64,000 nt of DNA, taken from contig NC_034009.1 in assembly GCF_000346465.2 (NCBI RefSeq), positions 15,354,950-15,418,949 of the forward strand, written 5' to 3'. The notes beneath the pieces are model-generated. The model worked only from the letters and a program-made list of their open reading frames with translations. It was not told the DNA's origin and made no database searches. Shown piece after piece: positions 27,440 to 59,265 of this stretch. Numbering within the stretch: the stretch's first letter is position 1; every line of letters starts with the position of its first letter. A program made the position numbers and the translations under genes. Origin of the DNA: Prunus persica (lineage: Eukaryota > Streptophyta > Magnoliopsida > Rosales > Rosaceae).

Positions 27440-27589
27440 GTTTTAACGAGGCAACATGAGCGCATTACCCTTATGTCCCAAATAAAGTTGTACTCTTTTT
27501 CCTTCGCTTAGGTTTTTTCCCACTGGGTTTTTCCAAGCAAGGTTTTAATGAGGCAACCAATCTAGGGACATGTGGTCTTCAAGGGGGAG
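27440..27589 (+). repeat. 150-bp extension upstream of the 5' LTR, copy of the internal 3' tail
   Basis: Sequence from GTTTTAACGAGGCAACATGA to the purine tract AAGGGGGAG matches 33804-33953 with one visible difference. The target duplication lies outside this block, so it entered the genome together with the element. This is expected if plus-strand DNA synthesis began at an upstream site and produced an LTR extended at its U3 end. Confidence 0.75.
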
Positions 27590-28004: not shown

Positions 28005-28020
28005 CGTTATCAGCACGAGA
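28005..28020 (+). other. Putative primer-binding site of copia element 2
   Basis: CGTTATCAGCACGAGA directly follows the LTR. It is not the usual initiator-Met 3'-end site (TGGTATCAGAGC); the priming tRNA is not identified here. Confidence 0.5.
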
Positions 28021-28065
28021 AGCTCTCAGGTGAAGGTTTTTATCCCCACATTTATTTTATTTATA

Positions 28066-28489
28066 GTATGGAGTAGGTTTATTACCCATACGGCAATATT
28101 TATTTAAAAGGGTAGCGCGGGTTTATCGTCCATGCCTTTACTTTTATTTAAAAGTATGGAGCAGAATTAGTGCCCATACAAGTACATTTACTTTTATTAA
28201 AAGTATGATGTGGAATTAACCCTCATACTTTATGAATTTACTTTACTGTACATTTACTTTTATTAAAAGTATGATGTGGAATTAACCCTCATACTTTATG
28301 AATTTACTTTACTGCACATTTACTTTTATTAAAAGTATGATGTGGAATTAACCCTCATACTTTATATTTCCTTTTATTTAAAGTATGGTGCGGAATTAAC
28401 GTCCATACAGCAAGCAATTTACTTTATGAATTTACTTTATCGCACATTTAATTTTATTTAAGGTATGGTGCGGGTTTATCGTCCATACC
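28066..28489 (+). repeat. Array of eight stem-loops in the RNA leader of copia element 2
   Basis: Between primer site and gag, units of about 50-80 bp each contain an inverted repeat: 28066-28091, 28110-28136 (imperfect), 28154-28179, 28200-28231, 28266-28297, 28332-28363, 28383-28408 and 28462-28489. Arms are GTATGG/CCATAC in some units, AAAGTATGA/TCATACTTT in three, and GGTATGG/CCATACC in the last, i.e. changes on one side are matched on the other. Loops contain GGAATTAA or GGTTTAT. Three central units form a 66-bp tandem repeat. Confidence 0.8.
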
Positions 28490-28604
28490 AGCAAATTCAT
28501 AGCACTTTATTTTTTATCATCAATTAATATACCTGAATAATGAGGGCCTGAAATTCCTATTAATAAGTGGCTTAATGTCCCAGATCTCGAGCCTAAAGTT
28601 TCGG

Positions 28605-29663
28605 ATGGCAAATTTGGCAAAACTAGAGTTTGCTGCCTTGGACCTTTCCGGGGACAACTATTTATCATGGGTCCTGGATGCCAAAATTCATCTACGAGCC
28701 AATGGCCTCGGACAAACAATTGTAGATGAGAATGATGCTTCGCCTGAAGAGAATGCGAAGGCCATGATCTTTCTTCGCCGCCACATCCATGAAGCGCTGA
28801 AGAGCGAATATGTGGTGGTTGATGAACCGTTGGTTCTATGGAAAGCTCTAGGTGAAAGATACGATCACCAGAGGATGGTGACTCTCCCAAGAGCTAGATA
28901 CGAATGGACTCACTTGAGATTTCAAGATTTCAAGTCAGTGTCCGAGTATAACTCTGCTATGCACAGAATTACCTCATTAATGAGGCTATGTGGGGAAGAT
29001 ATATCTGAGGAGGATATGCTCGAAAAAACTCTGAGCACTTTTCATGCTTCAAATGTCTTCCTTCAGCAGCAATACAGACATAGCGGTTTCAAGAAGTACT
29101 CGGAACTTGTATCCTGCCTATTGTTAGCTGAGCAGAATAATGAGCTCTTATTAAAGAATCACCAATCTCGCCCAACAGGCTCAGCACCACTTCCTGAAAT
29201 AAATGCTGCATCTCAGGAAGTGAATGCCACTTCATCTCGTGGTAGTATCCACAAACGTGGGCGAGGGGGCAAGCGTGGCCGCTGGCAAGGAAGCAGAAAA
29301 GATCGTGGTGCTCGTTCAGAGGGTTTCGGTCCAAGAAGCGGTCCATCCACGAATGGCAAAAATACATCCCGTAATAAGGGAAAGGCACAGATGAGCCATG
29401 TGCCTAGAAATGTTGAAAGCACTTGTCACAGATGTGGTGCAAAGGGACACTGGGTGCGCGCATGTCGTACGCCCAAGCATTTGGCGGATCTCTATCAAGC
29501 TTCACTTAAGAACAGGAAAGTGGAGATAAATTATATTGATCATGCTCCACCAGCCACAGATGGCTCATCAGAAATATCGCGTCAGCTAAACAAGACGCAT
29601 CTGGATGTTTCTGACTTTGTTACTGAAAAAGGGAATGAAGCTTCTGAGTCCGAATTAGATTAA
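28605..29663 (+). CDS. Gag polyprotein of copia element 2
   Basis: Structural gag protein, 352 aa from the ATG at 28605 (MANLAKLEFAALDLSGDNYL matches the usual gag start; an in-frame ATG ten codons upstream is less likely). Capsid motifs: VLDAKIHLRANGLG, LVLWKALGERYDHQR and YEWTHLRFQDFKSVSEYN. A basic Arg/Gly region (GRGGKRGRWQGSRK) precedes an intact CX2CX4HX4C zinc knuckle, CHRCGAKGHWVRAC. Complete and uninterrupted, ending at a stop 26 bp before the pol frame, which lies in another phase. Confidence 0.9.
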   Translation: MANLAKLEFAALDLSGDNYLSWVLDAKIHLRANGLGQTIVDENDASPEENAKAMIFLRRHIHEALKSEYVVVDEPLVLWKALGERYDHQRMVTLPRARYEWTHLRFQDFKSVSEYNSAMHRITSLMRLCGEDISEEDMLEKTLSTFHASNVFLQQQYRHSGFKKYSELVSCLLLAEQNNELLLKNHQSRPTGSAPLPEINAASQEVNATSSRGSIHKRGRGGKRGRWQGSRKDRGARSEGFGPRSGPSTNGKNTSRNKGKAQMSHVPRNVESTCHRCGAKGHWVRACRTPKHLADLYQASLKNRKVEINYIDHAPPATDGSSEISRQLNKTHLDVSDFVTEKGNEASESELD

Positions 29664-29689
29664 ATTCCTTAATGTACTATTTGTATTAG

Positions 29690-31132
29690 ATGAAGTGTTG
29701 TTTAATTTTTCATCCAATAAAAGTGGTAATGTTTTCTTCTTTATTGATTACAGTGTGTGTGTGCTTATTTGAAGGCATGGATGTAAATTATGGATGCCCT
29801 CAAAACAAAGGTTATGGCAAAAATATTTGTCTCGCAGACAGTGCGACTACTCATACGATCCTTCAAGATCGGAAGTATTTCTCAAAATTAATGCTTACAA
29901 AAGCAAAGGTAACAACCATATCAGGTCCTGCAGATCTGATTGAAGGCTCAGGAATAGCCCAAATTATGTTACCAAATGGAACAATACTATCCATTCCAGA
30001 TGCTTCGTATTCATCTAACTCCAGAAGGAATCTATTGAGTTTCAAAGATATACGTTTGAATGACTACCATGTTGAAACAAAGAAAGAGAAAAACATGGAA
30101 TATCTTTGCATTACCTCCAGTGATACCCAAAAGCGTATACTGGAGAGGCTTTGTGCGCTCTCATTAGGGTTGTATTATACAACCATACGGACAATTGAGG
30201 CACATAGTGTCATGGACCAAGAGTCCATTGACTCAAATGCTTTTAAGCTTTGGCATGACAGGTTGGGTCATCCTGGATCCACCATGATGCGTAGAATCAT
30301 CACCAACTCTAAAGGACATCCCTTGTTGACTAAACACATTATGTTATCAAGTGACATCTTTTGCCAAGCTTGTTCACAAGGGAAGTTGGTGATCAGAACA
30401 TCACAACCGAAAGTTGATGTTGAGTCTCCATCATTTTTGCAGAGAATTCAAGGGGACATTTGTGGACCTATTCATCCCCCATGTGGACCATTTCGGTACT
30501 TTATGGTCTTGGTGGACGCATCTACTCGATGGTCACATGTTTGTCTTTTGTCTACTCGGAATATGGCATTTGCTAGACTTTTGGCTCAGATAATTAAATT
30601 ACGAGCCCAATTCCCAGATTATCCCATTAAGTCAATCAGACTCGATAATGCTGGTGAATTTACATCTCAAACTTTTGATGACTACTGCATGTCACTAGGC
30701 ATTGACATTGAACACCCTGTTCCCCATGTGCATACTCAAAATGGCTTGGCAGAAGCTTTAATTAAGCGCCTTCAATTGATAACACGCACTTTGCTAATGA
30801 AAACAAAGTTGCCAGTTTCTGCTTGGGGATATGCCATTTTACATGCAGCATCACTTGTGCGATTGAGGCCCGTCGCCAACAATCAATATTCTCCAATACA
30901 ACTCGTATTGGGGAATCAACCAAACATTTCACATTTAAGAATTTTTGGGTGTGCGGTATATGTGCCCATTGCACCACCGCAACGTACTAAGATGGGCCCT
31001 CAACGCAGATTGGAAATTTATGTTGGTTTTGAGTCACCATCTATCATCAGATATCTGGAACCCCTGACGGGTGATTTTTTACCGCACGGTTTGCGGATTG
31101 CCATTTTGATGAGACAATCTTCCCATCATTAG
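29690..31132 (+). CDS. Pol N-terminal part: protease, pre-integrase, integrase (copia element 2)
   Basis: Open 480-codon frame. Protease motif CLADSATTHTIL, pre-integrase FKLWHDRLGHPGS, zinc motif ending CQACSQGKL, and an integrase core with all three acidic residues: IQGDICGPI, SIRLDNAGEFTS and QNGLAEALIKRL. LRIFGCAVYVPI marks the end of the core. The true start is uncertain; the first clearly homologous residues are VNYGCPQNKGYG. The frame leaves the family sequence in the T-run at about 31073-31080 (a 1-nt indel) and ends at 31132, while the RT domain continues further on. Confidence 0.88.
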   Translation: MKCCLIFHPIKVVMFSSLLITVCVCLFEGMDVNYGCPQNKGYGKNICLADSATTHTILQDRKYFSKLMLTKAKVTTISGPADLIEGSGIAQIMLPNGTILSIPDASYSSNSRRNLLSFKDIRLNDYHVETKKEKNMEYLCITSSDTQKRILERLCALSLGLYYTTIRTIEAHSVMDQESIDSNAFKLWHDRLGHPGSTMMRRIITNSKGHPLLTKHIMLSSDIFCQACSQGKLVIRTSQPKVDVESPSFLQRIQGDICGPIHPPCGPFRYFMVLVDASTRWSHVCLLSTRNMAFARLLAQIIKLRAQFPDYPIKSIRLDNAGEFTSQTFDDYCMSLGIDIEHPVPHVHTQNGLAEALIKRLQLITRTLLMKTKLPVSAWGYAILHAASLVRLRPVANNQYSPIQLVLGNQPNISHLRIFGCAVYVPIAPPQRTKMGPQRRLEIYVGFESPSIIRYLEPLTGDFLPHGLRIAILMRQSSHH

Positions 31133-31210
31133 GTGGAGAAAAATCTGTGTCTAAAGAACAAGGCAAACTCATTCCTGAAAAACGACATGAATTATCGTGG
31201 AATGTATCCA

Positions 31211-31944
31211 CATTGTCTCATCTCGATCCTTATACTGCTCAATGCGAAAACGAAGTGAGAAGGATCGTTCACCTCCAAAGTATTGCAAATCAGATGCCAG
31301 ATGCATTTAATGATGCAGCAAAGGTGACGAAATCTCATATCCCAGCTGCAAATGCACCCGCACGGATTGATGTCCATAATGGACAAGGCAATGTGCCAGC
31401 AAATGGTTCATCTGTTGCAGGCCTGAAGTGTGGCAGACCACTAGGCTCAAAGGATTCAGTTCCTCGAAAGAGGAAGTTGATGGACAAAATGAATCCAAAT
31501 GAAATAAATAGAGAGCCCACAATTCATAATTCAAATGCCCCCAAAGAGGGACAGGTACTTCCTGAAAAGGAAAACGTCATTGTCTCATCTCGATCCTTAT
31601 ACTGCTCAATGCGAAAACGAAGTGAGAAGGATCATTCACCTCCAAAGTATTGCAAATCAGATGCCAGATGCATTTAATGATGCAGCAAAGGTGACGAAAT
31701 CTCATATCCCAGCTGCAAATGCACCCGCACGGATTGATGTCCATAATGGACAAGGCAATGTGCCAGCAAATGGTTCATCTGTTGCACGCCTGAAGCGTGG
31801 CAGACCACTAGGCTCAAAGGATTCAATTCCTCGAAAGAGGAAGTTGATGGACAAAATGAATCCAAATGAAATAAATAGAGAGCCCACAATTCATAATTCA
31901 AATGCCCCCAAAGAGGGACAGGTACTTCCTGAAAAGGAAAACGT
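31211..31944 (+). repeat. Tandem duplication of 367 bp inside pol
   Basis: 31211-31577 and 31578-31944 are near-identical direct copies (few substitutions, e.g. CAGGCCTGAAGTGTGG versus CACGCCTGAAGCGTGG). The word CATTG occurs at both borders and again after copy 2 (31945), a microhomology at the junction. It covers the linker between integrase and RT. Because 367 is not a multiple of 3, the duplication shifts the frame. Confidence 0.92.
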
Positions 31945-33727
31945 CATTGGTGAGACAAGTGCCCTTGGAGTGGCAACTGTACCTGAAAGTCAAGAAATCT
32001 CCATAAATTATGCGTCCACTGATGAATTGTGGAGTAGAAATGAGATAATAAAAAATGATGATATTGAGCCATGCTCTATTAATGAATGTACACAGAGGCA
32101 AGATTGGCCCAAGTGGAAAGATGCAATCCAGGCAGAATTAAATTCTTTGGAAAAAAGGAGTGTTTTTGGACATATTATTCCAACTCCACCCAATGTGAAC
32201 CCTGTAGGTTACAAGTGGGTATTTACAAGAAAGCGCAATGAGAAAAATGAGATCTCAAGGTATAAAGCGCGACTCGTTGCGCAAGGTTTTTCACAAAGGC
32301 CTGGAATTGATTATGTGAAAACGTACTCTCCAGTAATGGACACAATTACATTCCGTTACTTAATAAGTTTGGCGGTTTCGGAAAAACTTGAAATTAGACT
32401 CATGGATGTCATTACTGCATATCTGTATGGAGAATTGGATACAGATAGATACATGAAAGTTCCAGAAGGATTCAAGCTGCCTGAAGCAGCCAGAAATAAA
32501 CCACGGGGCATGTTCTCAGTTAAATTGAGAAGATCATTATATGGGCTAAAACAATCTGGACGAATGTGGTACAATCGTCTCAGTAAGTATTTACTGAAGG
32601 AAGGATACACAAATAATCCTATTTGCCCATGTGTGTTTATTAAGAAATCAGAGTCTGGATTTGCGATAGTGGCAGTATATGTCGACGACATGAACCTGAT
32701 TGGAACTTCTGAAGAGCTTCAAAAGACTGCTGATTATCTCAAACGTGAATTTGAGATGAAAGACCTTGGAAAGACAAAATATTGTCTTGGCTTGCAGATT
32801 GAGCATAGTGCTAATGGAATTTTGGTGCATCAATCAAATTATACTGAAAAGGTATTGAAACGGTTTGGCATGGATAAAGCCCATCTACTTAGCACTCCAA
32901 TGGTCGTTCGGTCGCTTGACACTAAGAAAGACCCATATCGTCCAAAAGGGGATGATGAAATGGTCCTTGGTCCAGAAGTACCATATCTTAGTGCAATAGG
33001 TGCTTTATTGTACCTGGCACAATGTACCAGACCAGACATGTCATTTTCAGTAAATCTGTTAGCAAGGTACAGTTCTGCTCCAACAAAGCGACATTGGACC
33101 GGCATCAAACATGTTCTACGATACCTTCGTGGGACAACAGACATGGGCTTATTCTATTCCAATGAATCGACCAGCTCCCAGAGTATTGTTGGTTATGCAG
33201 ATGCAGGATATCTCTCTGATCCACATCAAGGACGATCACAGACTGGGTATGTATTTACATGCGGAGGAACTGCAATCTCATGGCGCTCAACGAAACAAAC
33301 ACTAGTGGCCACATCTTCCAATCACTCAGAAATACTTGCCCTCCATGAAGCCAGTCGTGAATGCGTTTGGTTAAGGTCGGTGATCCATCACATCCGAAGC
33401 ACGTGTGCCCTACCCTCAACAACAGACACTCCAACAATCCTGAATGAGGACAATGCAGCTTGTATTGCTCAGATCACAGGAGGGTATATCAAGGGTGACA
33501 GGACTAAGCACATATCACCAAAGTTTTTCTATACACACGAGCTCCAGAAGAGTCAAGAAATCAAAGTCAGACAAATCCGCTCAAGCGATAACCTGGCAGA
33601 TCTCTTCACTAAATCATTGCCGAAATGTACATTCCAAAAGTTAGTGCATGGCATCGGATTACGACAACTCTGTAAGAAATCAAGTTGGAGCATGCAAAAT
33701 CAGGGGGAGCATTCAAGAGTCCTCTAA
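31945..33727 (+). pseudogene. Reverse transcriptase and RNase H (copia element 2)
   Basis: RT motifs: WPKWKDAIQAELNSLEKRSV, NPVGYKWVFTRKRNEK, ARLVAQGFSQRPGIDY, KLRRSLYGLKQSGRMWYNRL, AVYVDDMNLIG (catalytic YVDD), TRPDMSFSVNLLARY. RNase H motifs: VGYADAGYLSDPHQGRSQTG, SNHSEILALHEASRECVWL, NEDNAACIAQ, DRTKHISPKFFYTHEL and NLADLFTKSLPK. This part is intact from the duplication to the stop at 33725-33727. It is in the integrase phase again, but only because the T-run indel and the 367-bp duplication offset each other; the stretch between is out of frame. Confidence 0.9.
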
Positions 33728-33944
33728 CACAGGACATATGCGCGTTGTACTCTTTTTCCTTCGACTAGGGTTTTTTTTTCCTCACCGGGTTTTTCCTAGC
33801 AAGGTTTTAACGAGGCAACATGAGTGCATTACCCTTATGTCCCAAATAAAGTTGTACTCTTTTTCCTTCGCTTAGGTTTTTTCCCACTGGGTTTTTCCAA
33901 GCAAGGTTTTAATGAGGCAACCAATCTAGGGACATGTGGTCTTC

Positions 33945-33953
33945 AAGGGGGAG
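33945..33953 (+). other. Polypurine tract of copia element 2
   Basis: AAGGGGGAG immediately before the 3' LTR. A related repeat unit upstream (33757-33830, CACCGGGTTTTTCCTAGCAAGG) precedes the point where the 5' extension starts, and may have acted as a second priming site. Confidence 0.8.
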
Positions 33954-34368
33954 TGTTGTAAATAATATTGGTGAAGCCCACATAAAGAGAAATGATGGAA
34001 GAAAAATGATTGTATTAAGTATGGTAGTCAAAAGAAGAAATGATGGTGTTAGAAGTGGGATGATTAGTCAAAAGATGAAATTATAATGTTGGGGAGAAAT
34101 CATTATGTCTCCATTAGAAGCCTTTTACTTTGCCTATAAATAGGCTTGCTCATTCACTTGTAATACACACCAAAGAGAAGAGAAGAAAGAGTGAGGAAAG
34201 AAAGAACGGAAGAGAGAAAGAGAAAGAGTGGGAGTCAGAGAGAAGAGAAAGAGTGGAGTCTATCTGAGGAGAAATTCTGTCAGTGTAAACACTACAAAGA
34301 GAAATATAATCTCACTCCCAATATTACAGTGGTACTTCTCATCAACTGATTATTCTAGTTTTATAACA
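33954..34368 (+). repeat. 3' LTR of copia element 2
   Basis: 415 bp, TGTTGTAAATA...TTATAACA, with TATA box at 34135-34143. One difference from the 5' LTR noticed. Confidence 0.9.
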
Positions 34369-34439
34369 CATTGCGACTACTCTGTATTTTTTTATGTGTT
34401 ATCAATAAAATTACTATCACTTTTAATCAAAAAAAAAAA

Positions 34440-38215: not shown

Positions 38216-38401
38216 GAGTTGTTATAAGTATGGGGGGATTTTGATAGGTGAACACATTGTGAGTTTAGGGTTGTTTGGAGCAAGTGGTGGTGCAATGGGA
38301 GGTAAAATATTGAACTTTGGTGTTTATATAGCAATACCCATATTGATTTTACCCACCAAAATTAAACTGTTGACTTGGAGTGGGGAGCTGCAACTTTAGT
38401 T

Positions 38402-38815
38402 ACCTTCATAACTGGTAATGTGATATCTGCATTATTAGTATCATAAACGCTATTTTCATTTTCTTTACTGGTGATATGCATTGATATTTACTATCATATT
38501 TGCCAAGATGAAACTGTTGACTTGGTCATATTCAAATGTAACTAAGTTACCTTCATAACTGGTGATGTGATATTTGCATTATTAGTATCATAAACGCTAT
38601 TTTCATTTTCTTTACTGGTGATGTGCGTTGATATTTAGTATCATATTTACCAAGATGAAACTGTTGACTTGGTCATGTTCAAATGTAACTAAGCCATAAT
38701 TGGTGATGTGATATTTGCATAATTATTGTCATCAAAAGTATTTTTATTTTTTTTGACTGGTGATGCGCGTTGATAATTAGTATCATAAATGCCAAGACCT
38801 GTTCGCCTCTAGTTG
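38402..38815 (+). repeat. About 150-bp tandem repeat, 2.8 copies
   Basis: Units start at 38402, 38552 and 38696 with CTTCATAACTGGTGATGTGA-type sequence and share GATGAAACTGTTGACTTGGTCAT. A partial unit (AAATTAAACTGTTGACTTGG) precedes the first copy. Copies differ progressively, the third being the most diverged and deleted. Confidence 0.8.
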
Positions 38816-38955: not shown

Positions 38956-39790
38956 TTGAATAAAGTAAGGCGACGACAGTTGGGAAACTTTCCAATATAT
39001 AGAACCCGACACTTTCTTGTTGGTCCAGAAAGGACACCGTTAACTATTCCTCCAGATACCATTTTTACTCCCTCTTCTCCAACAACCCAGATGGACATCC
39101 CAAACTTGCCATGGTTATCGGTGCTGTTTTTGGTTGCAAAGCACTCCTCTGAAGATCTATACAGCATGTTGGGGACATACAAGTTATTTCAAGAAATGCT
39201 CAATGATCGTGAGGTTTGGCGAACTGTGTCAATAGAGAAGTACTAGTGGCACGAGGATTGGTACGGGTTTTTTTTTTTTTTTGGTTCAATTGGTATGGGT
39301 TTCATGAAGGCAAAATTGTTGAGTTCTTGTAAAAGTGCAAAAAACATAACAATCCAGAAATCACTCACAGACAAGCTTTTCATGACTTCTTCATATGCAA
39401 AGATGATGAGGCGGTCAACATGAGGGTGGCAACTATGGCAGGGCATATGGAATCCTGCTACATTGTTGGCTTGCTAGAGCTATTGAACCCTAGTGAGGGC
39501 AAGGAGGATGCAATGGAAAGTTTATGCCATCTAAGTAAAACCAAGAAAATTGACATGCAAGCATGCATGGATTCAATTATCTATCGACTGCTGAGGTATA
39601 GTTTGGGTGTGGTGACTCCTCCAACGCTTGCAAAGTTTACTGCTGACGAAAGTTATTTTCAAGAGTGCTTTCATTGTGAGGGTAATTGGGAGTAGTATTT
39701 ATCATGGGACCGTAGGGTTAGTTACTCTTACGACGCAGAGTCTTGGAATTACTTTGAACTTGCAAATGGAAGAGGGAGCTGTTGATACTC
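38956..39790 (+). pseudogene. F-box protein At2g35280-like, broken
   Basis: Reads NLPWLSVLFLVAKHSSEDLY, SMLGTYKLFQEMLNDREVWR and TVSIEKY, resembling the degenerate F-box start of the At2g35280-like family (substrate adaptors of SCF ubiquitin ligases). After a stop at 39246 and a frameshift the family C-terminal part follows: MRVATMAGHMESCYIVGLLE and LNPSEGKEDAMESLCHLSKT, a Sel1/TPR-like stretch, ending ECFHCEGNW. The T-run at 39269-39284 lies at the break. At least one stop and two frameshifts. Confidence 0.55.
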
Positions 39791-40494: not shown

Positions 40495-40592
40495 AGGGGA
40501 GCCAGACCTTCGAAGGAGCCAGGTCTTGTGGAAAAATTCGGAGACTCCAATTCTTCCATGGCTCTCGCCGTTCGGCAAGGGTCTAGCTCCCT

Positions 40593-40628
<36 letters not shown>

Positions 40629-40840
40629 TGAATGGCCAGGCCATTTGGAAATTTTGGACTCTCCATAGTTCTTCCATGGCCCTTGCCGTTCGGCAAGGGT
40701 CTAGCCAATTTTTTTTTGTTTTTTTGTTTTTTTTTTTTGAGCTTCGGGAGCTAGGCCTTCGAGGGAGCCGGATCTTGAAAATTTTGGAGACTCTCAAAAT
40801 TTTGCCATGGCCCTTGCCGTTCGGCAAGGGTTTAGCCATA
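40495..40840 (+). repeat. Roughly 120-bp tandem units containing the hairpin motif
   Basis: Three successive units share GGAGACTC or GGACTCTC, then CTTCCATGGCCCTTGCCG-type sequence and GGCAAGGGTCTAGCC. They are separated by T-runs at about 40595-40627 and 40711-40738. They form the left part of the hairpin array. Confidence 0.75.
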
Positions 40841-42090
40841 TACATATATTTTTTGTTTTGAATGGCCAGGCCTTCTTGAGTTGGGGCTTGGGCATGTGGA
40901 AAGAGTTGGGCCCGTGATGGGCTTCAGCAAGTAACAAGGCCTAGGGTTTTGGGAGGAGGAGGTATACAAATAAGAGGGTGGCCACCATGCCGTTCGGCAT
41001 TTCCTCATTCGGCACCTTGGAGTAGAACAAATTCCTGGAATCCCCTTGCCGTTCGGCAAGTTCTTGGAGTCACGGTTTTGTGCTTGTATTGATTTTGGCT
41101 TCGGGTCAAGGGAACAATGCTTCGGCAAGCGGCACAAACTTGGAAGGGTTGGTGACGGCTGGCCAAACTTGGAAGGGGCTGGACAGCCTGTGGCGCAAAG
41201 AAACTGCTGGGGTGAAATTGCCGTTTGGTTGGAAACGGCTGGGCTGTTTTGGCTAGGCGTCGGGGTGGTGCTTCGGCAGCAAGACTCGGCAGGCTAGTTG
41301 GGTTGTGCTGTGCCGATCGGCAGGGTTGGTCCGAGGAGGTGTTGCTGTGCTGCGAGCACATCGGTAGTGGCTGGACACTTGCCGTTCGGCAAGGGTGATT
41401 GGGGAGCAGGGCTCGGTGTGAGCGAAGTCAGCGGGAAGAGATTGGCTTCGGCAATTGAGCTTGCCGTTCGGCAGGAGCCTTGGGGATGGCTGGAGTTGTG
41501 CTTCGGCAGTTGTGAGCACGGCTGCGGCAGTTGTGAGCACGGTTTTGGCACGGGTTGGCTTCGGCAGCAGCACGATTGTGATTTTTCTTCGGCAAGCCAA
41601 GGCATCAGCACCGAGTTGGATTTTGTTTTTGGCAAGGCAAGGTAGCAGCACCAATTTGGATTTTGAAGACCCTTGCCGTTCCGCAAGGGTGATTTGGCCT
41701 AGCTGGACGAGTTGGCGCGGTAGCTGGAGCATGGGGGAGCAAGGGTGAGTGGTGCTTCATTTTTGTTTGCTCAGCCCTTGCCGTTCGGCAAGGTTGAGGT
41801 TTGGTGTAATTGGAGCCGAGATCTTGTGTTGTTCGAGGTGCTGGACCTTCGACGCATCCGGGTGGAGTTAGACTGTCCATACTCGGCAGGTGAGTTATCC
41901 GTATGTTTCTGTTCGGGCCTTGTCGTTCGGCAAGCCCAGCTGAATTATGTTGTGAAATTGGTTTGGGTGTCTTGATAAAATTTGGGTCTTGGCCTTGTAG
42001 TAGGATTGGGCTTACGAAATAGGCTAGGACACGTGAAAATATGGGGACTCCATTTTGTTTTTGCACGGGCCTTGCCGTTCGGCAAGGCCC
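40565..42090 (+). repeat. Array of about twelve GC-rich inverted repeats, CTTGCCGTTCGGCAAG
   Basis: Copies: 40565-40580 (variant), 40680-40699, 40811-40830, 40987-41000, 41045-41060, 41311-41322 (loop variant), 41378-41393, 41460-41475, 41670-41689 (one mismatch), 41776-41793, 41919-41934 (one G:T-type change) and 42067-42090. Each is a stem of 5-10 bp around GTTC. Outer arms differ between copies but stay complementary: CCCTTGCC/GGCAAGGG, ATGCC/GGCAT, GGGCCTTGCC/GGCAAGGCCC. Many isolated half-sites (TTCGGCA) lie between. The array fills the space between the antisense gene's 5' end and the 3' LTR. Confidence 0.88.
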
Positions 42091-42234: not shown

Positions 42235-42639
42235 CTACAAATAGGAACTTGGAGTGGTGAAGGCACCACACTTGAGTTGAGTTGAGAAAAATTGTGAGAA
42301 TTTGAAGGAGAGGAGAGGCGATTTCCGGCGATTAGTTTGTGGTGGTGCTTGTGGCTGAGGTGATTTCCGGCGAGTCGTTCGTGGTGGTGCGATTAGACCT
42401 CATTTCGCTTGACTTTTTGAATTGAAATGTATTGTTTTGCATGAACATGTTGAAGGCTAGGAAGAACACATTGAACATGAGCATGAACATGATGAACACG
42501 TTGAACATATGTATGAACATGTAGAATTCTTGCCTGGATACCAAAGAACATGTAGATTTGCCAAATTTTTGTTGTTGTGGTTCGATCCTCCTTGCATGTG
42601 CATTAGTTCCTTTTTCATGTTTTTTTTTGCAAATTGTAG
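42235..42639 (+). promoter_or_regulatory. Putative promoter and leader of the antisense gene
   Basis: CTACAAATAGG (about 42236-42246) is TATA-like and is followed by a leader. The phrase GATTTCCGGCGA occurs twice (about 42320 and 42361). GAACA/GAACATG words recur about nine times at 42441-42532. The ATG at 42640 comes directly after TTGCAAATTGTAG, a plausible splice acceptor, so a 5' UTR intron is possible. No transcript evidence. Confidence 0.45.
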
Positions 42640-44880
42640 ATGTCTGAAAGTTCTGATAGAGAAAGTCCTGAGCCCCCTGCCTTTGGCGGGGATGACACTG
42701 AGAGTGAAGAGCCCAGCCAATATATTTGTTCTGAAGAGGAGAGTTCAGAGACAGAGGGTATGGTAGAAGGAACCATAGAAAGTAGGATGATAGGGCCTGG
42801 GGGTGAGAGGGCTGAGCCATCGGGAGACTCTGGGTCGGCTGCATATAGGGAGATGCAGAGAAATTATATAGAGTTAGAGGCTATAGCAAATCGGGTTCTA
42901 GCCTTGCCTCAAACGCAAGAAGTGGGTTCGAGCAACCAGGCATCACCATCAAGGTCTGTGGGTATAGCCGTGGCTTCGGTATCAGAGGGATTAGACATCC
43001 GGGTTGGTGTCCCGTTGTCGCGGCGGAATACACTTACAGAAGCGAAATTGGCCCAGCTACGAACAGATTTTTGTGTGCCAGCCTATGTGGGCTTGAGGTT
43101 ACCCACTGAGGCCGATATAGTCAGATATCCTTCGGATGGCTCCGTGATGATTTTTACGGATATGTATCGGCACGGCTTCAGACTACCGTTTCATCCGTGG
43201 GTTCAGATGATGTTGGCCAAGTTGGGGTATGCACCGGGGCAGTATAATCCCAACTTTTGGATTCTTCTTCATGGGGTGTATATTGCCTGGTGGTTGGCTG
43301 GGTTAGGGGAGCCAACGTTTGAGCAATTCATGTACCTGTACTCCATTTCGAAGCAGCAGGGGAATTTTGGCTGGGTACAGGCCAATTGCCGAAAGGCGAA
43401 GGAGAGGGGTTATTTTATTGGACACAAGCCCACAACGCAAAAGTCCTGGAGGAACAGGTGGTGCATGGCCTACGGGGACTGGGAGAGTCCTCCAGGGAAG
43501 AGCGTTGTCCAGCACATTCCTACCCACTTCCAGTCTATAGGTCCTTAGCCCCATCCCTTAAGATTGTCTAATGCTTGATTGTGTTGTCTTGGCTCCTATT
43601 TTTGGTTCTGTATTTTGTCTGTGCCAGTATAAATGGCTAAGTAGTATCTGACCTTTGGTGCAGGTTCAGTGAAGTGGGGGCCTATCTCCAAGGAGCAGGA
43701 AGACGAGGTTGAGTGGGTGAGGGCGCAGTTGTCGGAGACTGAGCGTGAGTGCGGGAACCTAGTCACGCAGAAGAATTTGTTTGAGTCCGGACTCCTTCAA
43801 GGAAGTAAGTACCTGGGTCACATTTATGAGTTGTGTGCTGGGCCTTTTGTGGTTGTGACTAATGTAGTTGTTTTGTTTGTTTGGACAGTGGCTGGCATCA
43901 TAAGGGGGAGCACGAAGGTGGCCGTAGACATTGATGAGGCCGAGATGCAGAAGCGGCTGAGGGAGTCTCGGGCCAAGAAAGCTGAGAAGAGTGCTGGAAA
44001 ACGACCCAGGGATGATGACGAGGGTCGGGTCGCGGACGTGCTGGGGAAAAGGAAAGCCTTGGAGGAGGCTCATCAGCATGTGATGGGGTCAGGGCCGAGA
44101 CTTCCGCCCTTTGATCTGCAGGCACCGCCGAAGCTACCCTTCGGCATGGAGGACGTGTTCGCTGAAGGGGTAGAGAAGGTAGACTTCGGCAGGCTACGCC
44201 AGCAGAAGAAGGAGGTCAACCTGGCGATGCACCGGCAGGAGGTGCCTTTAGTGAACGTTTTCCTGGAAGGCGTGAAGAGCGACCCTGAGGCTCTAGCGAG
44301 GACTCCAGCTTCTTCCTTCATTGACCGGGCCCAAAAGACGATCCTCACCTCTGCCTATGTAAGTGTTTAGGTCCTTTTTGAATGTATTTGTGTTGGAGTA
44401 TTTATGTGTGGATTGACTAACATGGTGTTTGTTTTGCAGGCCTTTGGCGAGATGTACGTCAGCATGGCCAAGGCTGACAAGGAGATCCAGAGGCTGAAGA
44501 GGCGGGATGAGCTAGCCAAGAGCAAAATGGCGGAGGCGCAGGAGGCCATCCGAGAGAAGAACGCCTTGCTGGTTCAAAAGGCGGCCCTGGCCAAGGAGGT
44601 GGAGGAGCTGAAGAGATCGAGGGCCGAGGAGGTGGCTGCTGCCCGAGTCGAGGCGATTGAGTCCTTCCGATCCTCAGAGGAGCTGAAGAGCTACATCATG
44701 GACCGACTGGTTGATGAGCAGCTTCGCTGGGAAGATAGGTTGGTTAGGTTCAACCCCTCGGTGGAGATTAACTTTGACACCAGTGGCGAGCCTCCTGCAC
44801 ATACCCCTCCTGCTGATGCTAGCGCCCCGACACCAAAGGCTGAGCCGGCCAGTGAGAATGCCCCGTCGACCGAGTCTTGA
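42640..44880 (+). CDS. Antisense spliced gene of the gypsy element: putative gypsy-type transposon domain protein
   Basis: Four coding exons, 42640-43540, 43664-43804, 43889-44358 and 44440-44880. The introns begin GTCCTT, GTAAGT and GTAAGT and end CAG. The phases join exactly, giving 1953 nt or 650 aa. N-terminus is acidic and Ser/Glu-rich. Residues about 125-290 (FCVPAYVGLRLPTEADIV, YRHGFRLPFHPWVQMMLAKL, NPNFWILLHGVYIAWWLAGL, GYFIGHKPT) resemble the putative gypsy-type transposon domain (PF04195, Transposase_28). A basic stretch with KKAEKSAGKRPRDDDEG follows, then a C-terminal coiled coil rich in Lys/Glu/Ala (KADKEIQRLKRRDELAKSKM). It converges with pol, their stops lying 321 bp apart. Tat elements such as Grande and Retand carry antisense ORFs at this place; their function is unknown. 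Confidence 0.78.
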
Positions 44881-45201: not shown

Positions 45202-46330
45202 TTACTTGTAATAATACTTGAGGTGGTCAGCATTCCACGGGTGAGGCAGCGTCTTGCCTGTGGAATCACGAAGCTGATAAGTGCCGGGGCGGCAGATTTT
45301 GATAATCTCATAAGGACCTTCCCATGTAGGGCCGAGGGTACCTTCGCTGGGATTTTTGGTAGCCAAGGAAACTTTGCGCATGACCCAGTCCCCCATTTTG
45401 AAAGCACGGGGCTTGACTCGGGAGTCGTAATATTTGGCGATCCGTTGTTTGTACGCGACATTACGCATGTTCGATTGGTCCCGGAGCTCGTCAATGAAGT
45501 CGAGGTTGAGGGCCAACTGCTCGTCATTGGCCGTGGCATCGTAAGTGGAGGTTCGGTATGTGGGCTGGCCAATCTCTACCGGAGCCACGGCCTCGGTTCC
45601 AAATGATAGGGAGAACGGCGTTTCACCCGTGGATGTGCGGAAAGTGGTGCGGTAGGACCAGAGTACTTCTGGGAGTAGTTCTGGCCAGCAGCCCTTGGCT
45701 TTGTCAAGTTTTGTCTTGAGGGTCTTCTTGATAATTTTGTTCACGGCTTCGACCTGGCCATTGGACTGAGGATGGGCTGGGGAGGCGAAACACAGACGAA
45801 TCTTGAGGTTGGAACAAAATTGTTTGAATTTGGCGTTGTCAAATTGCCGGCCATTGTCGGTGACGATGGAGTTAGGGATGCCGAAGCGACATACAATGTT
45901 TTGCCACACAAAGGATTCGATGCGAGCCGCAGTGATGGTGGCCAAGGCCTCGGCCTCAGCCCACTTGGTGAAGTAGTCTACGGCCACGACTGCATACTTG
46001 ACTTGGCCCTTGCCCTCTGGCATAGGTCCAATGAGATCCAGTCCCCATTGGGCAAATGGCCAAGGGCTGACGATGGCAGTCAACGGTTCAGCCGGGAGTT
46101 GTGGAATGTTGGCAAATCGCTGACACTTGTCGCATTTCTGGGTGAATTCCTGGGCGTCAGTGTGGAGCGATGGCCAGAAGTATCCTTGGCGGATTGCCTT
46201 ATGGGCCAGCGAGCATGCGCCCGAGTGGTTACCGCATATGCCTTCATGGATTTCTCGGAGGACATAGTGACCCTCCTCTGGAGTCAGGCATCGGAGGTAA
46301 GGAAGGCTGAAACCCCGCTTGTATAAGGAG
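45202..46330 (-). pseudogene. Gypsy integrase with HHCC zinc finger
   Basis: From about 46330 the minus strand gives the zinc-binding segment HEGICGNHSGACSLAHKAIR and CDKCQRF, then the core with all three acidic residues: WGLDLIGPM, IVTDNGRQFDN and SNGQVEAVNKII. The C-terminal part (FKMGDWVMRKVSLA, GPTWEGPYEIIKI, WNADHLKYYYK) is complete to the stop at 45202. The integrase itself is uninterrupted; the upstream stop at about 46372 separates it from the second RNase H. Confidence 0.88.
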
Positions 46331-46917: not shown

Positions 46918-48480
46918 CTAGGTTAGGTCGAGATTGCCTTCGGTGGGGGTTTGGTCCTGGCTGGGAGGGGGATTGGGTTCGGTTATGGGCTGGATGGCTG
47001 CCGAAGCTTGAGGCTCCGTGAATTCGGATAAGAAGTCAGCAACGGCCTGTCCCCTCATAGCCGGGCGGGGTTTGTAATGAAGATCAAACTCGCCCAGTTC
47101 AATGGCCCATTTGACCAGCCTCCCAGAAGTTTCTGGGTTCTGCAACACCTGTCGGAGTGGTTGGTTGGTTAAGACATGGATGGTGTGAGCTTGAAAATAT
47201 GGTCGGAGGCGTCTTGCTGAGACGACCAGGGCAAACGCCAATTTTTTGATGTCCGGGTACCGAACTTCGGCATCTTGCAATGCTTTACTAACATAATGCA
47301 CTGGGTGTTCCGCGTTGTCTTTTGATCGGATGAGCACAGAGCTAACAGCCGAAGCTGAGATGGAGAGATAAATCACGAGGATGTCTCCGTGCTCAGGGGT
47401 TGACAATAAAGGGGCCCGGCCCATATACTCCTTGAGCTCGCTGAAAGCCGTGTCGCATTCAGCAGTCCAGGTGATGTTTCTTTTGGTGCCTTTAAGGGCC
47501 TTGAAGAATGGGGCGCAGCGGTCAGTGGCTTTGGAGATAAATCTGGTCAGGGCTGCGACACGCCCTGTAAGGCTTTGGATATCTTTGACCGTCTTAGGTA
47601 CCGTCATGTCTAAGATGGCCTGGATCTTTTCTGGATTGGCCTCAATACCTCTCTGGCTGATCATGAAGCCCAGAAATTTGCCGGAAGCCACCCCGAATGC
47701 ACATTTGGTGGGGTTAAGCCTCATTTTGTACTGCTTCAGGATGGTGAACATGGCGGAGAGGTTAGGGATGTGTTGGTCAGCCGTGCGACTCTTGACTAGC
47801 ATGTCATCGACATAGACCTCCATGGTATTGCCAATCAAGGGGGCGAAGAGGTGGTTCACCAGACGCTGATAAGTAGCCCCGGCGTTTTTGAGGCCAAAGG
47901 GCATCACCTTATAGCAGTAGAGGCCGCGGTCCGTAATGAAAGAGGTGTGGGCCTGATCTTCGGGGTGCATGAAGATCTGGTTGTAACCTGAATAAGCATC
48001 CATGAAGCTAAGGAGGGCGTGGCCGGCTGTGGCGTCGACTAGCTGGTCAATGCGGGGTAGCGGGAAGCTATCCTTTGGGCAAGCCCGATTAAGGTTGGTG
48101 TAGTCGACACACATGCGCCAGCCCTTTCTTGGCTTGCGGACCATCACGACGTTAGCCAGCCATGTAGGATAATCAACCTCCCTGATGAATCCGATGTTGC
48201 TCAATCGATCAACCTCCGCCCTTATGGCCTCATAGCGCTCGGGATCATAAGCGCGGCGCTTCTGTCGGACTGGTCTGACGGCAGGATTGACGCTAAGCCT
48301 ATGGGATATGATGTCTGGTGATATGCCAGGCATGTCATTGTAGGACCATGCGAAGACTTCGGAGTTGAGGCGGAGGAAGGCGACCAGGTCAGAGCGAAGT
48401 TCTGGCGAGATGGAGGTGCCGATCCGGACTTGTCGATCCGGGATATCGTCATGGAGGGTAACCAGCTCCAGGTCCTCCAT
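46918..48480 (-). pseudogene. Gypsy reverse transcriptase and first RNase H
   Basis: Open 520-codon frame beginning MEDLELVTLHDDIPDRQVRI. RT motifs: GFIREVDYPTWLANVVMVRK, MCVDYTNLNRACPKDSFPLP, MPFGLKNAGATYQRL and MEVYVDDMLVKS with the YVDD catalytic pair. RNase H part: YLSISASAVSSVLIR, HYVSKALQDAEVRYPDIKKL and GQAVADFLSEF. A stop (48481-48483) separates it from the gag-protease frame and another at 46918-46920 from the second RNase H. Confidence 0.9.
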
Positions 48481-48483
48481 GGG

Positions 48484-50070
48484 TTAAGCCTGTGGTGCGA
48501 TGGACTCCTCCCTTGGGTCTTCAGGTGGTTCTGTGCCAGCTTGAGGAGGGGCGGGAGCCATGGTTACCGAAAGGGCCTCGCTCCTAGGTTGGCGATTGGT
48601 GGATTTTACTGCTGAAGCATAGCAGCTTCGGGCCCCGAGTTGGTCGCCGCGCACCGTGCCTGGGCCATTAGGAGTGGGAAACTTCAACAGCAGCATATGC
48701 GTGGAAATAAAAGCTCTCATTTGGGCCAGGGCTGGGCGGCCGAGGATGACGTTGTAGGCTGTGGGGCAATCGACGATAAGGAAGGGGGTAGTGATCGTCG
48801 TCCGCTGGGGTGCGGCCCCAATTGAGATAGGGAGATGAATGCTGCCAATGGGCTGGACCACATCACCCGAGAAGCTCACAAGGGGTGTGATGCTTCGGTC
48901 GAGTAGGTGAGGCGGGACCTGGAGTTCATTGAAGGCTTCGGCAAACATCACACTGACCGAGCTGCCAGTGTCCACCAGGATACGCCCAACGTCGAAGTTA
49001 GAAATGTCAGCCCGGATAATGAGTGGATCGTCATGGGGGAGGATAACACCACGCTCCTCCTCCTCGCAGAAGGTAATGGGGGCCCAGCCAGTCCTGTGGG
49101 TCTTTGGCAAGCGTCCCTGCTCGGTGCTGAAGACCTGGTGCGCATAGGTGGAGCGGACATAATGTTTGATGGAGTTGTTGGAGGTGCCAGCCAGGGTAGG
49201 ACCTCCGCTGATGGTGGAGATCATGTTGATTTGTCGTTGGTGAGGGTTAGGCGGGGCTGGTATGTTGCGTACATAGTTGTCCAGCTTTCCCTCGCGGATG
49301 AGCCCTTCAATTATGTTGCGCAAGGCAACACAAGATTCGGTGTCATGGCCGCTGAATTGATGAAAGCGGTAGAAGACACCCGTGTTTGGCAGGGGCTTGC
49401 TAGATGGTCTCCGGGGGGGTGGCTTGGGGATGATAGGAGCTTCACGCACCAGGACATTCTCGTAGGTGGTGTTGAGGGTGGTAAATACTTCGAACCTGGG
49501 CCTGGGTGTGAATGGAAGTGGGGCCCGATCAGCAGGTCTAGGAGGGTTGCCTCCACTAGAGTAGTGGTGGTTGCCATGTCTGCCACGTTTGTTATTACCG
49601 AAGGGATGCTGGTAGCTATCCTTCCGCTTATGTTGTTGGTTGTCCTGGGCACTCGGGGCAGGGGTAGAATGCTGAGGTGGGGCTGGGGCGGGTGCTGAAG
49701 CAGGTGGAGGATCAGCGAAAGCGTTGCGCATCAGGTTAGCTGGGCCACGCTTGGAATTGAAGTATTCGGCCTTAGCATGGACCGCTGCCTGCTTCATCAG
49801 CTCTGCATATGTGTTCCAACTGTTGCTATGAACAAGGTAGCGGAAGTTGGACTCGCGGAGGCCGCTCTTAAAAGCGCCGAACGCAGCGCGATCGTCAGTG
49901 TCTGGGCAGCGGGAGTACTCATGACTGAACCGAGCTGCATATTCCCGAAGGGGTTTGTCCTCAGCCTGCCTAAGCATATACAAGTCGTCGGCAGAGTATA
50001 GGCGATCAGTTTGGATCATAAAATGGTCCAGGAACGTCTGCTTGAGACTATCGAAGGAGTTGATGTGCGG
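48484..50070 (-). pseudogene. Gypsy gag (C-terminal part) and protease
   Basis: From about 50070 the minus strand reads INSFDSLKQTFLDHFM, LRQAEDKPLREYAARFSHEY and FGAFKSGLRESNFRYLVHSN (retrotransposon gag domain), a Pro/Ala-rich linker, a CCHC-like segment (FHQFSGHDTESCVALRNIIE), and the aspartic protease VGRILVDTGSSVSVMF with YNVILGRPALAQ. The active-site DTGSS is intact. The frame upstream of about 50070 differs because of an indel in a C-run (CTCCACCCCCG on the minus strand). Confidence 0.88.
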
Positions 50071-50665
50071 GGGTGGAGCCTGTAGAACCAATTCAGGGCC
50101 GCGCCGCTGAGGTGGAAGGGAAAAGGAGGCACATGCCTTCATCAGTGAGGCCTTTGCACCCAAGGGCAGACTGGAAGGAGTGGATGTGGGTGAGAGGGTC
50201 CTCCGTGCCAGTGTAGAAAGCGATGCGGAGTGGCTAGATATCTTTCTCCTGGTGGTAGTGGAGGATGCGTTCGGTAAAGGGCCCTGGTCGTGGTTTTGCC
50301 CAGAGGGGTTGATGGCTGCGTTGTTGTTCGCTTTCCAGGCGCCGGACCTTTTCAAAGAGAAGCCTCATGGCCGGGTCGGCATGAGGAAGAGTTTCAGGTG
50401 CCAAAGGCCTGGGGGCGGGGCAGACAGGGACTGGGGATTGTTCCCAATTTTTCAGCTCCCCGGTGTGGTAATTTGGCCAGGTCTCTGAATTATAAAATTC
50501 CCAAGTATCCGAGTCCCCGACACCTTCCTCGTCGGGTATGCGGACGGGGGCTGGCGAAGGGCCCAGGTGTGTCACCCGTGGGTCTTCGAGGTTGACAGGG
50601 ATAGGGATCGGCCTTGGCTGACGGTCCGAGAGGCGATCCCTGCAATCTTGGTAGATCCTGTAAAT
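50070..50665 (-). pseudogene. Gypsy gag N-terminal part, truncated
   Basis: Minus-strand frame reads YQDCRDRLSDRQPRPIPIPV, MRLLFEKVRRLESEQQRSHQ and PRPGPFTERILHYHQEKDI, then a stop at 50234, then PLRIAFYTGTEDPLTHIHSF and LSGAALNWFYRL to the frameshift near 50070. GTEDP and LSGAALNWF are typical gag words. The beginning is lost where the tandem repeat starts at about 50665. Confidence 0.75.
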
Positions 50666-51550
50666 ACGTATGGAATTTCCCCCTAATTTCGGGATTTTTC
50701 CTACATTTGAAACTATTTTTGCAACAAAAAAAAAAAAGTTGAATAAAGTAATCCGGAAATCTCTTTTCACTAACATAATGATTTAAATATCGAATTTAAA
50801 AGGAGAAATAAGTGTAGGGTTTTTCCCATATTGATTATAACCCAATAGGAAATTTCCCCTTTATTTTCTGATTTGTCCTGCATTTTTATGATTTTTGCAA
50901 CAAAAAAAAAAGAATAAAGTAATCCGGAAATCCCTTTTCACTAACATAATGATTTAAATATAAAAATTAACCAAAAACTCCTTGCGAAGTAACCAAAAAC
51001 TCCTGACGAAGTATTCTTCCCCACAGATAATTAGGAATTCCCCCCTTTTTCATATTTTTCCTGCATTTTTTACGAATTTTGCAAACAAAACAATTAAAAT
51101 AATCAAGAAATGCCAAGTGGCAGTACTAGAGTGGGGAGCTGCAAACCTCAACGACACGCGGCGCATTCCCATGCCACCACACGCCACTTTTTCAATTTTT
51201 TATTCATTTTCACTTAAATATTCATTTAAAAATCGAATTTAAGGGGGAAAAATTCCTCCGGGATCGTGACGAGATTTCCTTCGATGACATATCCGGAAAA
51301 AGGCCGCAGCATACAAATTTGGATATAGGATTAGTGTGATCGAACAAATAAGAGTGTAAGGTTTACTAGTGTTTTCATTTGCATCATCCACGTCTAGAGT
51401 TCGCTCCCTAATTTTATTTTTCAGTGACTCCTAAACTCAGTATTGTATTTTCCGTATAAAGTATTCTTCCCCTTATATACTTAGGAATTTCCTCCATTTT
51501 TTTTTTCAGATTTTTCATGCATTTTTTTTCGAATTTTGCAACAAAAACAA
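50666..51550 (+). repeat. Degenerate tandem repeats of about 175-180 bp and related blocks
   Basis: Copies starting GGAATTTCCCC-like at about 50671, 50849, 51030 and 51486 share TTTTGCAACAAAAAA, AATAAAGTAATCCGGAAAT and CTTTTCACTAACATAATG. The third and fourth are fused to the block with GGAGTGGGGAGCTGCAAACC also found at 51590 and 53575. Non-coding. Confidence 0.7.
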
Positions 51551-51942
51551 AAAACGAATAAAATAATCAGGAAATGCTAAGTGGCGGCGCTGGAGTGGGG
51601 AGCTGCAAACCTCAGTGACACGCGGCGCATTTTCATGCCACCACACGCCACTTTTCTAATTTTTTAAATTCATTTTCATATGCATCGGCTCCCAATACTT
51701 TGGTTCTTAAGTACTTTTAACAACTGATATCTGTGGCTAAAAGTCAATTTTCACATAGTGGCTAAGTGACTCATCGCTTCATAATGGTAGATTTGAAAGC
51801 TTGAGGGCCAACGGAAAGAATTGGAAGAGAGTGGGCTGTTGCCCTCCACGTTTCATATTCCTTTTTTATTTTTCTTTTTTTTTTTTAATATTATAAGGAC
51901 AAAAATGTAAAATTCTTATATGTTTTTGAATAATTTCATTTA

Positions 51943-53146
51943 GAGGGGTGTATTCAATTAGGATTGTATACGATTTTGAAAGTTTTTTTTTTAAGTGACA
52001 GATTTTCTGGAATTATATAACTCCTATAGGTTTTACTATAGACTTCCATACTTTTGTATGAACTTTTGTTATAGATTCAGATATATTTGTATAGACTTCC
52101 CAATACTATTTTCTTTTATCGCTCTTTCTTCCCAACACTATTTGCTTTAAACTATCTTGACCTAGCCACTAGTCGACCATCCCTTTTTTTTTTTCCCCCT
52201 CCAAATTCTTCCTCTACTTGTGTGCACAACAATGAATTTTCCTTTGAATTCTCCATGAGTTGGAAACTTTCATACCTAAACAATGAATTTCCCTTTGAAT
52301 TTTCCATGAGTTGGAAACTTTCATACCTAAACAATGAATTTCCCATGAGTTGGAAACTTTCATACCTAAACAATGAATTTCCCATGAGTTGGAAACTTTC
52401 ACACCTAAACAATGAATTTTCCTTTGAAATTTCCACGAGTTGGAAATTTCCATTTGATTTTGTTCACGAACAACAAACTCTTCGTCCAAAAATTCAATTT
52501 AAAAAAAAAAAAACCCTTTGTCCAAAAAGCAAGGGCCCTATCATCTGGTTGTGTTATCGGTGATGGAAATATATCTCAACCTTTCGCCACCTTGATGTTG
52601 GCTTCACACCGAGAGATCTCCAAGGGAAACTTATTGGAGATCGAGAAATCTCTAGCCGAGCTTTCCTCCCAGCAACTCCAACTGGTTGATTTGAAGAAAT
52701 CACTAATAGAGGAGCTTTGCTTAATACATGACGCTTGTAACCACCCAAGGTTAGTGCATGGCTTAGTGCATTGTTTGCCAAACGATGGAAAAAAATTTAA
52801 CACAGAGAGGAAGAAAAAAAAAAACGTCATATGAAGTCTTTGGGGTGGAGGTTGGACTTATGTTGGCCTTTATTATTTATACCTAAACCCTACAAATTCT
52901 CCAAACTCCAACACTTAATTAAATCCTTCCAAATCTATCTTCTTGGTAAATTTATTTGGACTTTTTCCAAGTCCTAATTGAATACACCCACATTTAGATG
53001 GATATTTTAAAAGTTCAAATAAGTCTAAATTGAATACACCTAAACCGTTATAGACTTTTTAAAAGTTTGTATAAATCCAAATTGAATACACCCGGATTTT
53101 TAAAATCTTTTTAAACGCTCTAGAATCCTTATTGAATACAACCCCC
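51943..53146. mobile_element. Non-autonomous PIF/Harbinger element (1204 bp)
   Basis: Left end GAGGGGTGTATTCAATTAGG matches in inverted form the right end CCTTATTGAATACAACCCCC; TTA flanks both sides (51940-51942 and 53147-53149). The right 180 bp contain four spaced copies of the reverse word AATTGAATACACC. Left end and subterminal words equal those of the PIF element at 7657, so both belong to one family. No transposase. Confidence 0.85.
52230..52455 (+). repeat. Minisatellite of 51- and 39-bp units inside the PIF element
   Basis: Units at 52230, 52281 (51 bp each), 52332, 52371 (39 bp each) and 52410 (partial) share CAATGAATTT, CCATGAGTTGGAAACTTTC and ACCTAAA. The 12-bp difference is loss of CCTTTGAATTTT-like sequence. 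All units are multiples of 3, so an open frame runs through (repeat NNEFPFEFSMSWKLSYL), but coding is unproven. Confidence 0.85.
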
Positions 53147-54173
53147 TTAGTTTTTTGGCATTGACAATTTATGAGTTTGCAGCACATAATATACGATTAT
53201 TTTGATGAAAATTATGTACCTAAAGTTGGGAAAATAAAAGCCAGTCCCTTAAAAAAAAAAAAAAATTAATTAAAAAAAAACCTTGACTATTTGGTATGCT
53301 CTACTCACATGCAGGTCGCATAACTGTTCGGTACACCAAAGTGAACGTTCCAAATTGTAATATATTTTGGAAGCGTGTATATCAAAAGTTTCTGGAAAAT
53401 GATTCAAGCATTAGTGGACCAGAGCAATGAACATATCAAGCCAATGCTTTTCGGTTCAAGACTATCAACCAACAGTGTTCTCTTTGGAAGGCATGCTTGA
53501 CTAAGGCCAATACGAACCCACAAAGTGGCTCAACAAAATTTGAATAAAATAATCAGGAAATGCCAAGTGGCGGCGCTGGAGTGGGGAGCTGCAAACCTTA
53601 GTGACACGCGGCGCATGCCAATGCTGCCACACACCACTTTTCTAATTTTTTATTCATTTTCATACGCATCCGTTGCTAAAAGTCAATTTTCACATAGTGA
53701 CTAAGTGACTCATCACTTCATAATGGTAGATTTGAAAGCTTAAGGCCAAGGGGAAAGAATAGGAGGAGAGTGGGCCGCTGCCCTCCACGTTTCATATTCC
53801 TTTTTTTTTCTTTTTTTTAATATTATAAGGACAAAAATGTAAAATCCTTATATGTTTTTGAAGAATTTCATTTGATTTTTTGGCATTGAAAATTTATGAG
53901 TTTGCAGCACATAATATACGATTATTTTGATGAAAATAATGTACCTAAAATTGGGAAAATAAAAGCTCGTCCCTTGAAAAAAAAAAACTTCTGTTTGTTT
54001 GGTATGCTTTACTCCAGACGCAGGTCGCCTGACTGTTCGGTACACCTAAGTGAACGTTCCAAATTGCAATATATGTTCTTGCTCACCACTAGTACGTAGC
54101 ATGCAGTCGGCAAACCTTTTAAACCTTAAACTATAGCCCGATCCAAATTAACAAAATAAACGCCAAATCGGAG

Positions 54174-59234: not shown

Positions 59235-59265
59235 GTGGCGGAGAGGTAGGACCGAGGGAGAGATG

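Follow-up and report, generated by a model that had tools for sequence, protein, structure and literature searches.

A same-strand array of TTCGGCA palindromes upstream of an antisense TRP28-like gene in a peach Ty3/gypsy retrotransposon: candidate DNA recognition sites

In the VANDAL elements of Arabidopsis the motifs of VANC21 are described as dense, same-oriented and non-coding, with C and T types that follow the subgroup (PMC5735166). The peach array reported here resembles that system in its short word (YAGTATTAY in VANDAL), which is likewise dense, non-coding and held in one orientation, in an element with a gene for a candidate reader, in the fast turnover of the region, and in one-letter subtypes that differ by subgroup (PMC5735166). 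The hosts differ, the VANDAL elements being Mutator-type DNA transposons and the peach element an LTR retrotransposon with gag, reverse transcriptase and integrase. VANC arrays grow as tandem repeats, whereas most of the words described below have unrelated flanks and many form palindromes. For VANC, binding and loss of methylation were demonstrated (PMC5735166); for the peach array they would be predictions.

A second comparison is with the Retand elements, in which repeats and an antisense gene, of TRP28 type in Retand and TRP28-like here, also lie between pol and the 3' LTR (PMC11963269). In its treatment of repeats the Retand survey counts tandem repeats of at least three copies; that treatment mentions neither a word nor an orientation, and does not connect the repeats with TRP28 (PMC11963269). 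The plant mobile domain proteins MAIN and MAIL1 and their 'DOWN' motif also tie a transposon-derived domain to a short promoter motif; the motif reported from the MORC1 promoter, CATGCAGTTT, is unrelated to TTCGGCA, and is located in host promoters rather than in the array of an element (PMC7156037, PMC9899485).

The window analysed here is a stretch of 64,000 nucleotides of the Prunus persica genome (NC_034009.1, positions 15,354,950 to 15,418,949). The array belongs to a Ty3/gypsy retrotransposon that reads along the minus strand (Table 1), with reverse transcriptase and RNase H ahead of integrase in the gypsy order. Its 3' LTR and the 5' LTR in another copy matched over 512 bp at 95.7% identity, and in 39 other copies the match started at query positions 869–881 (window 39768–39780), at the LTR edge. 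The region from pol to the 3' LTR (45202 to 40290) is about 4.9 kb, and both this length and that of the LTR fall inside the ranges given in the Retand survey, 2.9–6.6 kb and 315–1,194 bp, respectively (PMC11963269). Other copies ceased to match near 50660, beyond the gag ORF, where the 5' part of the element is cut or displaced. AT-rich repeats occupy 50660–54074 in place of the expected 5' end.

Several other features were recorded in the window. A Copia-type element (27440–34369) has LTRs (27440–28005 and 33804–34369) that are 99.6% identical, so its insertion is recent; its pol carries a 372-bp tandem duplication (31211–31582 and 31578–31949). Adjoining the Ty3/gypsy element is a tandem duplication of about 147 bp (38356–38797). 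An inverted repeat of about 0.8 kb at 58425–61242 has arms that are 85% identical and about 1.2 kb apart, and an ORF at 54174–55193 gave a marginal UDP-glucosyltransferase match (E 4.2e-4).

Table 1. Coordinates in the window of the array, the antisense gene and the parts of the host element
Feature	Position	Strand	Basis or remark
The array, 12 irregularly spaced palindromes of the form CYTGCCG[T/A]TCGGCARG, some of them imperfect	40564..42086	+	Repeat and pattern search
Seven lone forward TTCGGCA words inside the array	41008, 41121, 41272, 41447, 41502, 41560, 41588 (41008..41594)	+	
TATA-like CTACAAATAG, past the array and ahead of the antisense gene	42235..42244	+	Seen in the sequence
Antisense gene with introns	42640..44880	+	Alignments of Prunus relatives, splice-like sites
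First-exon ORF of the antisense gene	42640-43548	+	Weak match to PF04195 (Transposase_28, TRP28)
3' LTR	39780 to about 40290	-	Starts TG on the plus strand; about 511 bp
Integrase core (rve) ORF	45202..46083	-	Domain search
Reverse transcriptase and RNase H ORF	46918..48480	-	Domain search
gag ORF	48484..50355	-	Domain search

The antisense gene was delimited from annotated Prunus relatives, which align along 42697–44877, and from the splice-like sites visible in its sequence. The PF04195 match of the first-exon ORF (E 3.9e-4, 21 bits) was under the cut-off of 26.2; the same domain is present in the precomputed annotation of several homologues (P0028, P0057, P0067 and P0069). Two structure models of the product, of modest confidence, gave no solved-fold match. 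The TATA-like sequence marks a putative promoter, and the strict TACAAATA/TATAAATA TATA pattern was found in only 5 of 30 copies.

An earlier note on this DNA had described about twelve irregularly spaced repeats in 1.5 kb, lying between the antisense gene and the 3' LTR, and on both counts it was correct. The pattern is more pronounced than that description, which mentioned neither the lone forward words among the palindromes nor the minus-strand course of the element. Twelve in-register copies of a 15-nt core start at 40563–42070, with a variable spacing of 59–264. CTTGCCGTTCGGCAAG is exact at six sites (40682, 40813, 41045, 41378, 41777 and 42071), has one mismatch at four (40564, 41460, 41672 and 41919) and three mismatches at one (40986), and the twelfth palindrome, at 41311, has TGCCGATCGGCA. 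With up to three mismatches and both strands counted, CTTGCCGTTCGGCAAG gave 21 matches against 0.21 expected, a number reached in none of 100 shuffles. Genome-wide (227.5 Mb), the 14-mer TTGCCGTTCGGCAA occurred 278 + 242 = 520 times against 0 + 1 for its reversed control, and CTTCGGCARG 1307 times against 189. The array is placed between the 3' LTR, which extends to about 40290, and the start of the antisense gene at 42640, and therefore lies on the upstream, promoter side of this gene. Its start is about 275 bp from the LTR and its end about 550 bp ahead of the antisense start codon; from the start of the last palindrome to that codon the distance was 517–722 bp in 30 copies, and 517–593 bp in 27 of them.

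The unit that recurs is the directional word YTTCGGCARG, either alone or with an inverted left half added. Orientation and context were determined in 30 family A copies, using 1.5 kb upstream of the antisense gene in each (45 kb in total). Loci were oriented by the majority palindrome strand, which equalled the antisense-gene strand in 30 of 30; a lone word was TTCGGCA without a preceding CCG, and expectations were taken from 30 shuffles. The palindrome core was found 121 times forward and once in reverse (3.2 expected), and lone words 166 times forward and twice in reverse (3.5 expected). In the window itself no reversed lone TTCGGCA was present between 40290 and 42640, against the seven forward ones of the array, and the 3' LTR contains two more forward words (40170 and 40207). 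Lone words with full flanks (n = 165) stood in 97 distinct contexts, with no strong preference outside the consensus YTTCGGCARG, and palindromes (n = 137) in 39, with the consensus given in Table 1. The palindrome centre is TT or another pair, and was AA once in 122. Recognition is probably directional, given that lone half-sites are roughly as frequent as palindromes and that AA is rare at the centre. When 7-mers were counted without prior choice, TTCGGCA ranked first by distinct contexts (84) and second by ratio to expectation, after CCGTTCG, which is part of the palindrome. The most frequent of its 21 single-letter variants reached 24 forward occurrences, compared with 291 for the word.

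The antisense-gene search, in which 130 of 306 candidates were scored, is a lower bound and gave at least 131 matches; the upstream DNA of 41 of these was studied, in three sets (30, 6 and 5). Palindrome clusters were compared with gene strand for 100 of the 520 palindromes, with matches to the family A gene taken from C1 and C2; for a partial match the query offset served to extrapolate the gene start. At 14 of the 24 listed clusters an antisense gene lay downstream, and 63 of 65 palindromes were on its strand; at the other 10 no antisense gene was detected among these matches.

Pairing of the outer arms was measured in 151 palindromes, reduced to 54 distinct contexts, from 30 family A sequences (the window and L010–L038) and from L002, L004 and L008. 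The mean beyond the core was 2.06 bp, against 1.27 bp for re-dealt partners, and 2.06 was reached in none of 2000 shuffles. The excess was located at offsets 1, 3 and 4 (z 3.8, 2.7 and 3.7), was weak at offset 2 (z 1.5) and was absent at offsets 5 to 10 in the 54 contexts, 16 of which had no outer pair. Arms that differ between copies yet still pair, as proposed earlier, were thus found above shuffled partners, to an extent of only about 4 bp and outside those 16 contexts. The arm changes are correlated, so the objection that related elements might show uncorrelated arms fails.

The distal part of the array is hypervariable. In seven distal 100-bp bins a locus aligned with 4.5 to 11.4 of 29 others, compared with 28.3 to 29 of 29 in the bins near the gene, and copies with first exons 98–99% identical can have only about a quarter of the array in common. 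Array matches between copies numbered 3355 on the same strand and 0 on the opposite strand. Aligned words were compared in matches of at least 100 bp and 70–97% identity that ended at or before query position 1100, of which 131 were left. The word was identical in 77.9% of 208 aligned cases, compared with 37.0% of 1913 for any 7-mers and 32.2% of 143 for other NNCGGNN words. Its CG was kept in 88.5% vs 72.7% (difference 0.157, bootstrap 0.070–0.227). The word is retained in aligned stretches while the spacers vary; the spacers thus turn over, with recombination as one of the causes, and the word stays. Flank homology was examined in the first 1100 bases of each locus, with 279 words having full flanks and 60 of 142 words as controls. 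One-sided homology was found in 462 and 216 of 37,532 pairs, close to the random rate of 0.97% per side, and the word is therefore not a frequent switching point; it may have a minor role of this kind.

In subfamily B the protein is about 49% identical (approximately 45–51%), mostly over residues 122–301, and the word differs by one letter. Its six loci contain TTCGGTA 25 times forward and never in reverse, TTCGGAA 12 times forward and 3 in reverse, and TTCGGCA once forward and 5 times in reverse. TACCGTTCGGTA was present in 4 of the 6 loci, and genome-wide this 12-mer occurred 126 times, about twice the 57 of its reversed control. Since the sites of different loci are homologous, the number of independent ones is small. 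With 25 shuffles per locus, TTCGGTA exceeded the shuffle maximum in one locus (7 vs 5) and tied with it in two. Fully conserved motif columns were 4 of 9, against 219 of 954 for any 7-mers, in four of the six loci, two near-duplicates having been dropped. One B locus, L040, carries GAACGGCA repeats.

More distant loci were mixed. In L047 (59% identical), repeats of about 65 bp carry TTCGGCA in both orientations, and the repeat of L046 (54% identical) is a different one; among decayed relatives, the words number 3, 1 and 0 in L048, L049 and L050. At the palindrome clusters L001, L002, L004 and L008, tandem units of about 53–57 bp with the reversed core GTGCCGAAGG stand beside forward palindromes, and no antisense-gene match was found in the 3-kb stretches analysed; L004 and L008 are neighbouring stretches of one place, which holds forward palindromes plus a reversed tandem array. 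A third TRP28-type subfamily (L051–L056) was found by PF04195 search. The earlier note had counted equally active antisense genes without the array against its proposal, and antisense genes that lack the array were found in part: TTCGGCA is absent from four of these six loci (L051–L054), and in the other two it is sparse, with one word in L056 and two per strand in L055. The latter also has six reversed TTCGGTA, in a distal part where a B-type palindrome maps. In L051 and L054, AGCCCAG or GCCCAGC repeats were above shuffle maxima. Across L051–L056, AGCCCAG/GCCCAGC repeats were seen before the start codon, with AATTAGG, AATTGGG or GATAATA words upstream and not TTCGGCA.

Of the three readings offered in the earlier note, a multi-site region for a dimeric protein, an RNA structure in the 3' UTR and a repeat made by recombination, the multi-site binding region appears best supported, and the palindromes and lone words are best described as candidate sites; an RNA structure or neutral duplication is a poorer fit. 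The part of that proposal that stood is a word that recurs with unrelated flanks, is kept above its surroundings and is oriented to the antisense gene; 'dimeric' applies only partly, lone half-sites being common. A functionless repeat, with palindromes spread by duplication and template switching, would agree with the hypervariable distal array, its matches confined to the same strand and displaced by more than 300 bp in 14% of cases, with the lower raw probability of a homologous right flank given the left for the word (0.53) than for control words (0.82), and with the variable 3' repeats described as usual in Retand elements (PMC11963269). Duplication and recombination do shape the spacers. 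They leave unexplained a word that changes far less than its surroundings, which weakens this reading, that is not a frequent switching point and that recurs in unlike repeat units, and we regard absence of function as highly improbable.

Somewhat less improbable, and still poorly favoured, is a role in RNA, in which hairpins or an oriented binding word in the 3' UTR of the genomic RNA would serve packaging, export or stability. The strict orientation of the word and the pairing of the outer arms beyond the core point that way. When both strands of one 291-nt piece were folded, the plus strand was more stable than shuffles (z -2.69), but the genomic-RNA (minus) strand was little more so (z -1.30), and no Rfam match was found. 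This unremarkable genomic-RNA fold and the presence of both orientations at L004/L008 and L047 make RNA structure less likely, as do lone words, which lack a conserved hairpin and are as common as palindromes. A host transcription factor could also read the word. The element would then have accumulated binding sites that enhance its antisense and LTR promoters, and TRP28 would not be the reader. We consider this unlikely, and give it some weight because 10 of the 24 listed clusters were without a detected antisense gene; the presence of the word in dissimilar repeat units elsewhere (other elements at L001, L002, L004 and L008) also favours it. The one-letter difference in subfamily B would be unexpected for a single factor, however, and a literature search gave no paper tying the word to a plant factor.

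The reading we prefer, tentatively and at a little less than even confidence, is that the array is a multi-site DNA recognition region, most likely read by the antisense TRP28 product, with an anti-silencing effect like that of VANC. Sites for a sequence-specific protein are suggested because a directional word is kept while its surroundings change, upstream of a gene of a family that others have predicted to bind DNA (PMC11963269), and because the word of sister subfamily B differs by one letter. Such a protein would read YTTCGGCARG as DNA, some sites having gained a second, inverted half-site. The likeliest reader, the element's own TRP28-type product, would be expressed from a promoter that lies past the array and ahead of its start codon, and would be bound along the array and at one or two of the LTR words. 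Binding may then sustain the activity of the antisense promoter or protect it from silencing, and perhaps do so for the LTR promoter too, in the way that VANC acts on VANDAL arrays. Against TRP28 as the reader stand the PF04195 match below cut-off, the lack of a fold match for the two models, the 10 of 24 listed clusters without a detected gene, the few independent sites and mixed words of subfamily B, the array-less third subfamily and the word-poor L048–L050.

A wider proposal, that Retand-type elements run their own sequence-specific anti-silencing or self-activation, with TRP28 and the word changing together (TTCGGCA to TTCGGTA), is possible but more doubtful. If true, LTR retrotransposons would have an independent counterpart of VANC, and the antisense genes as well as the variable 3' repeats would gain a function. 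According to the 2025 Retand survey, it is unknown what TRP28 proteins do, and likewise how the repeat arrays arose and what they are for (PMC11963269). A specific, oriented word that persists amid changing surroundings offers a definite candidate target, and turns the question of TRP28 and the array into one binding assay per subfamily. If the TRP28 product binds the word, LTR retrotransposons would join the VANDALs in carrying target-specific regulators.
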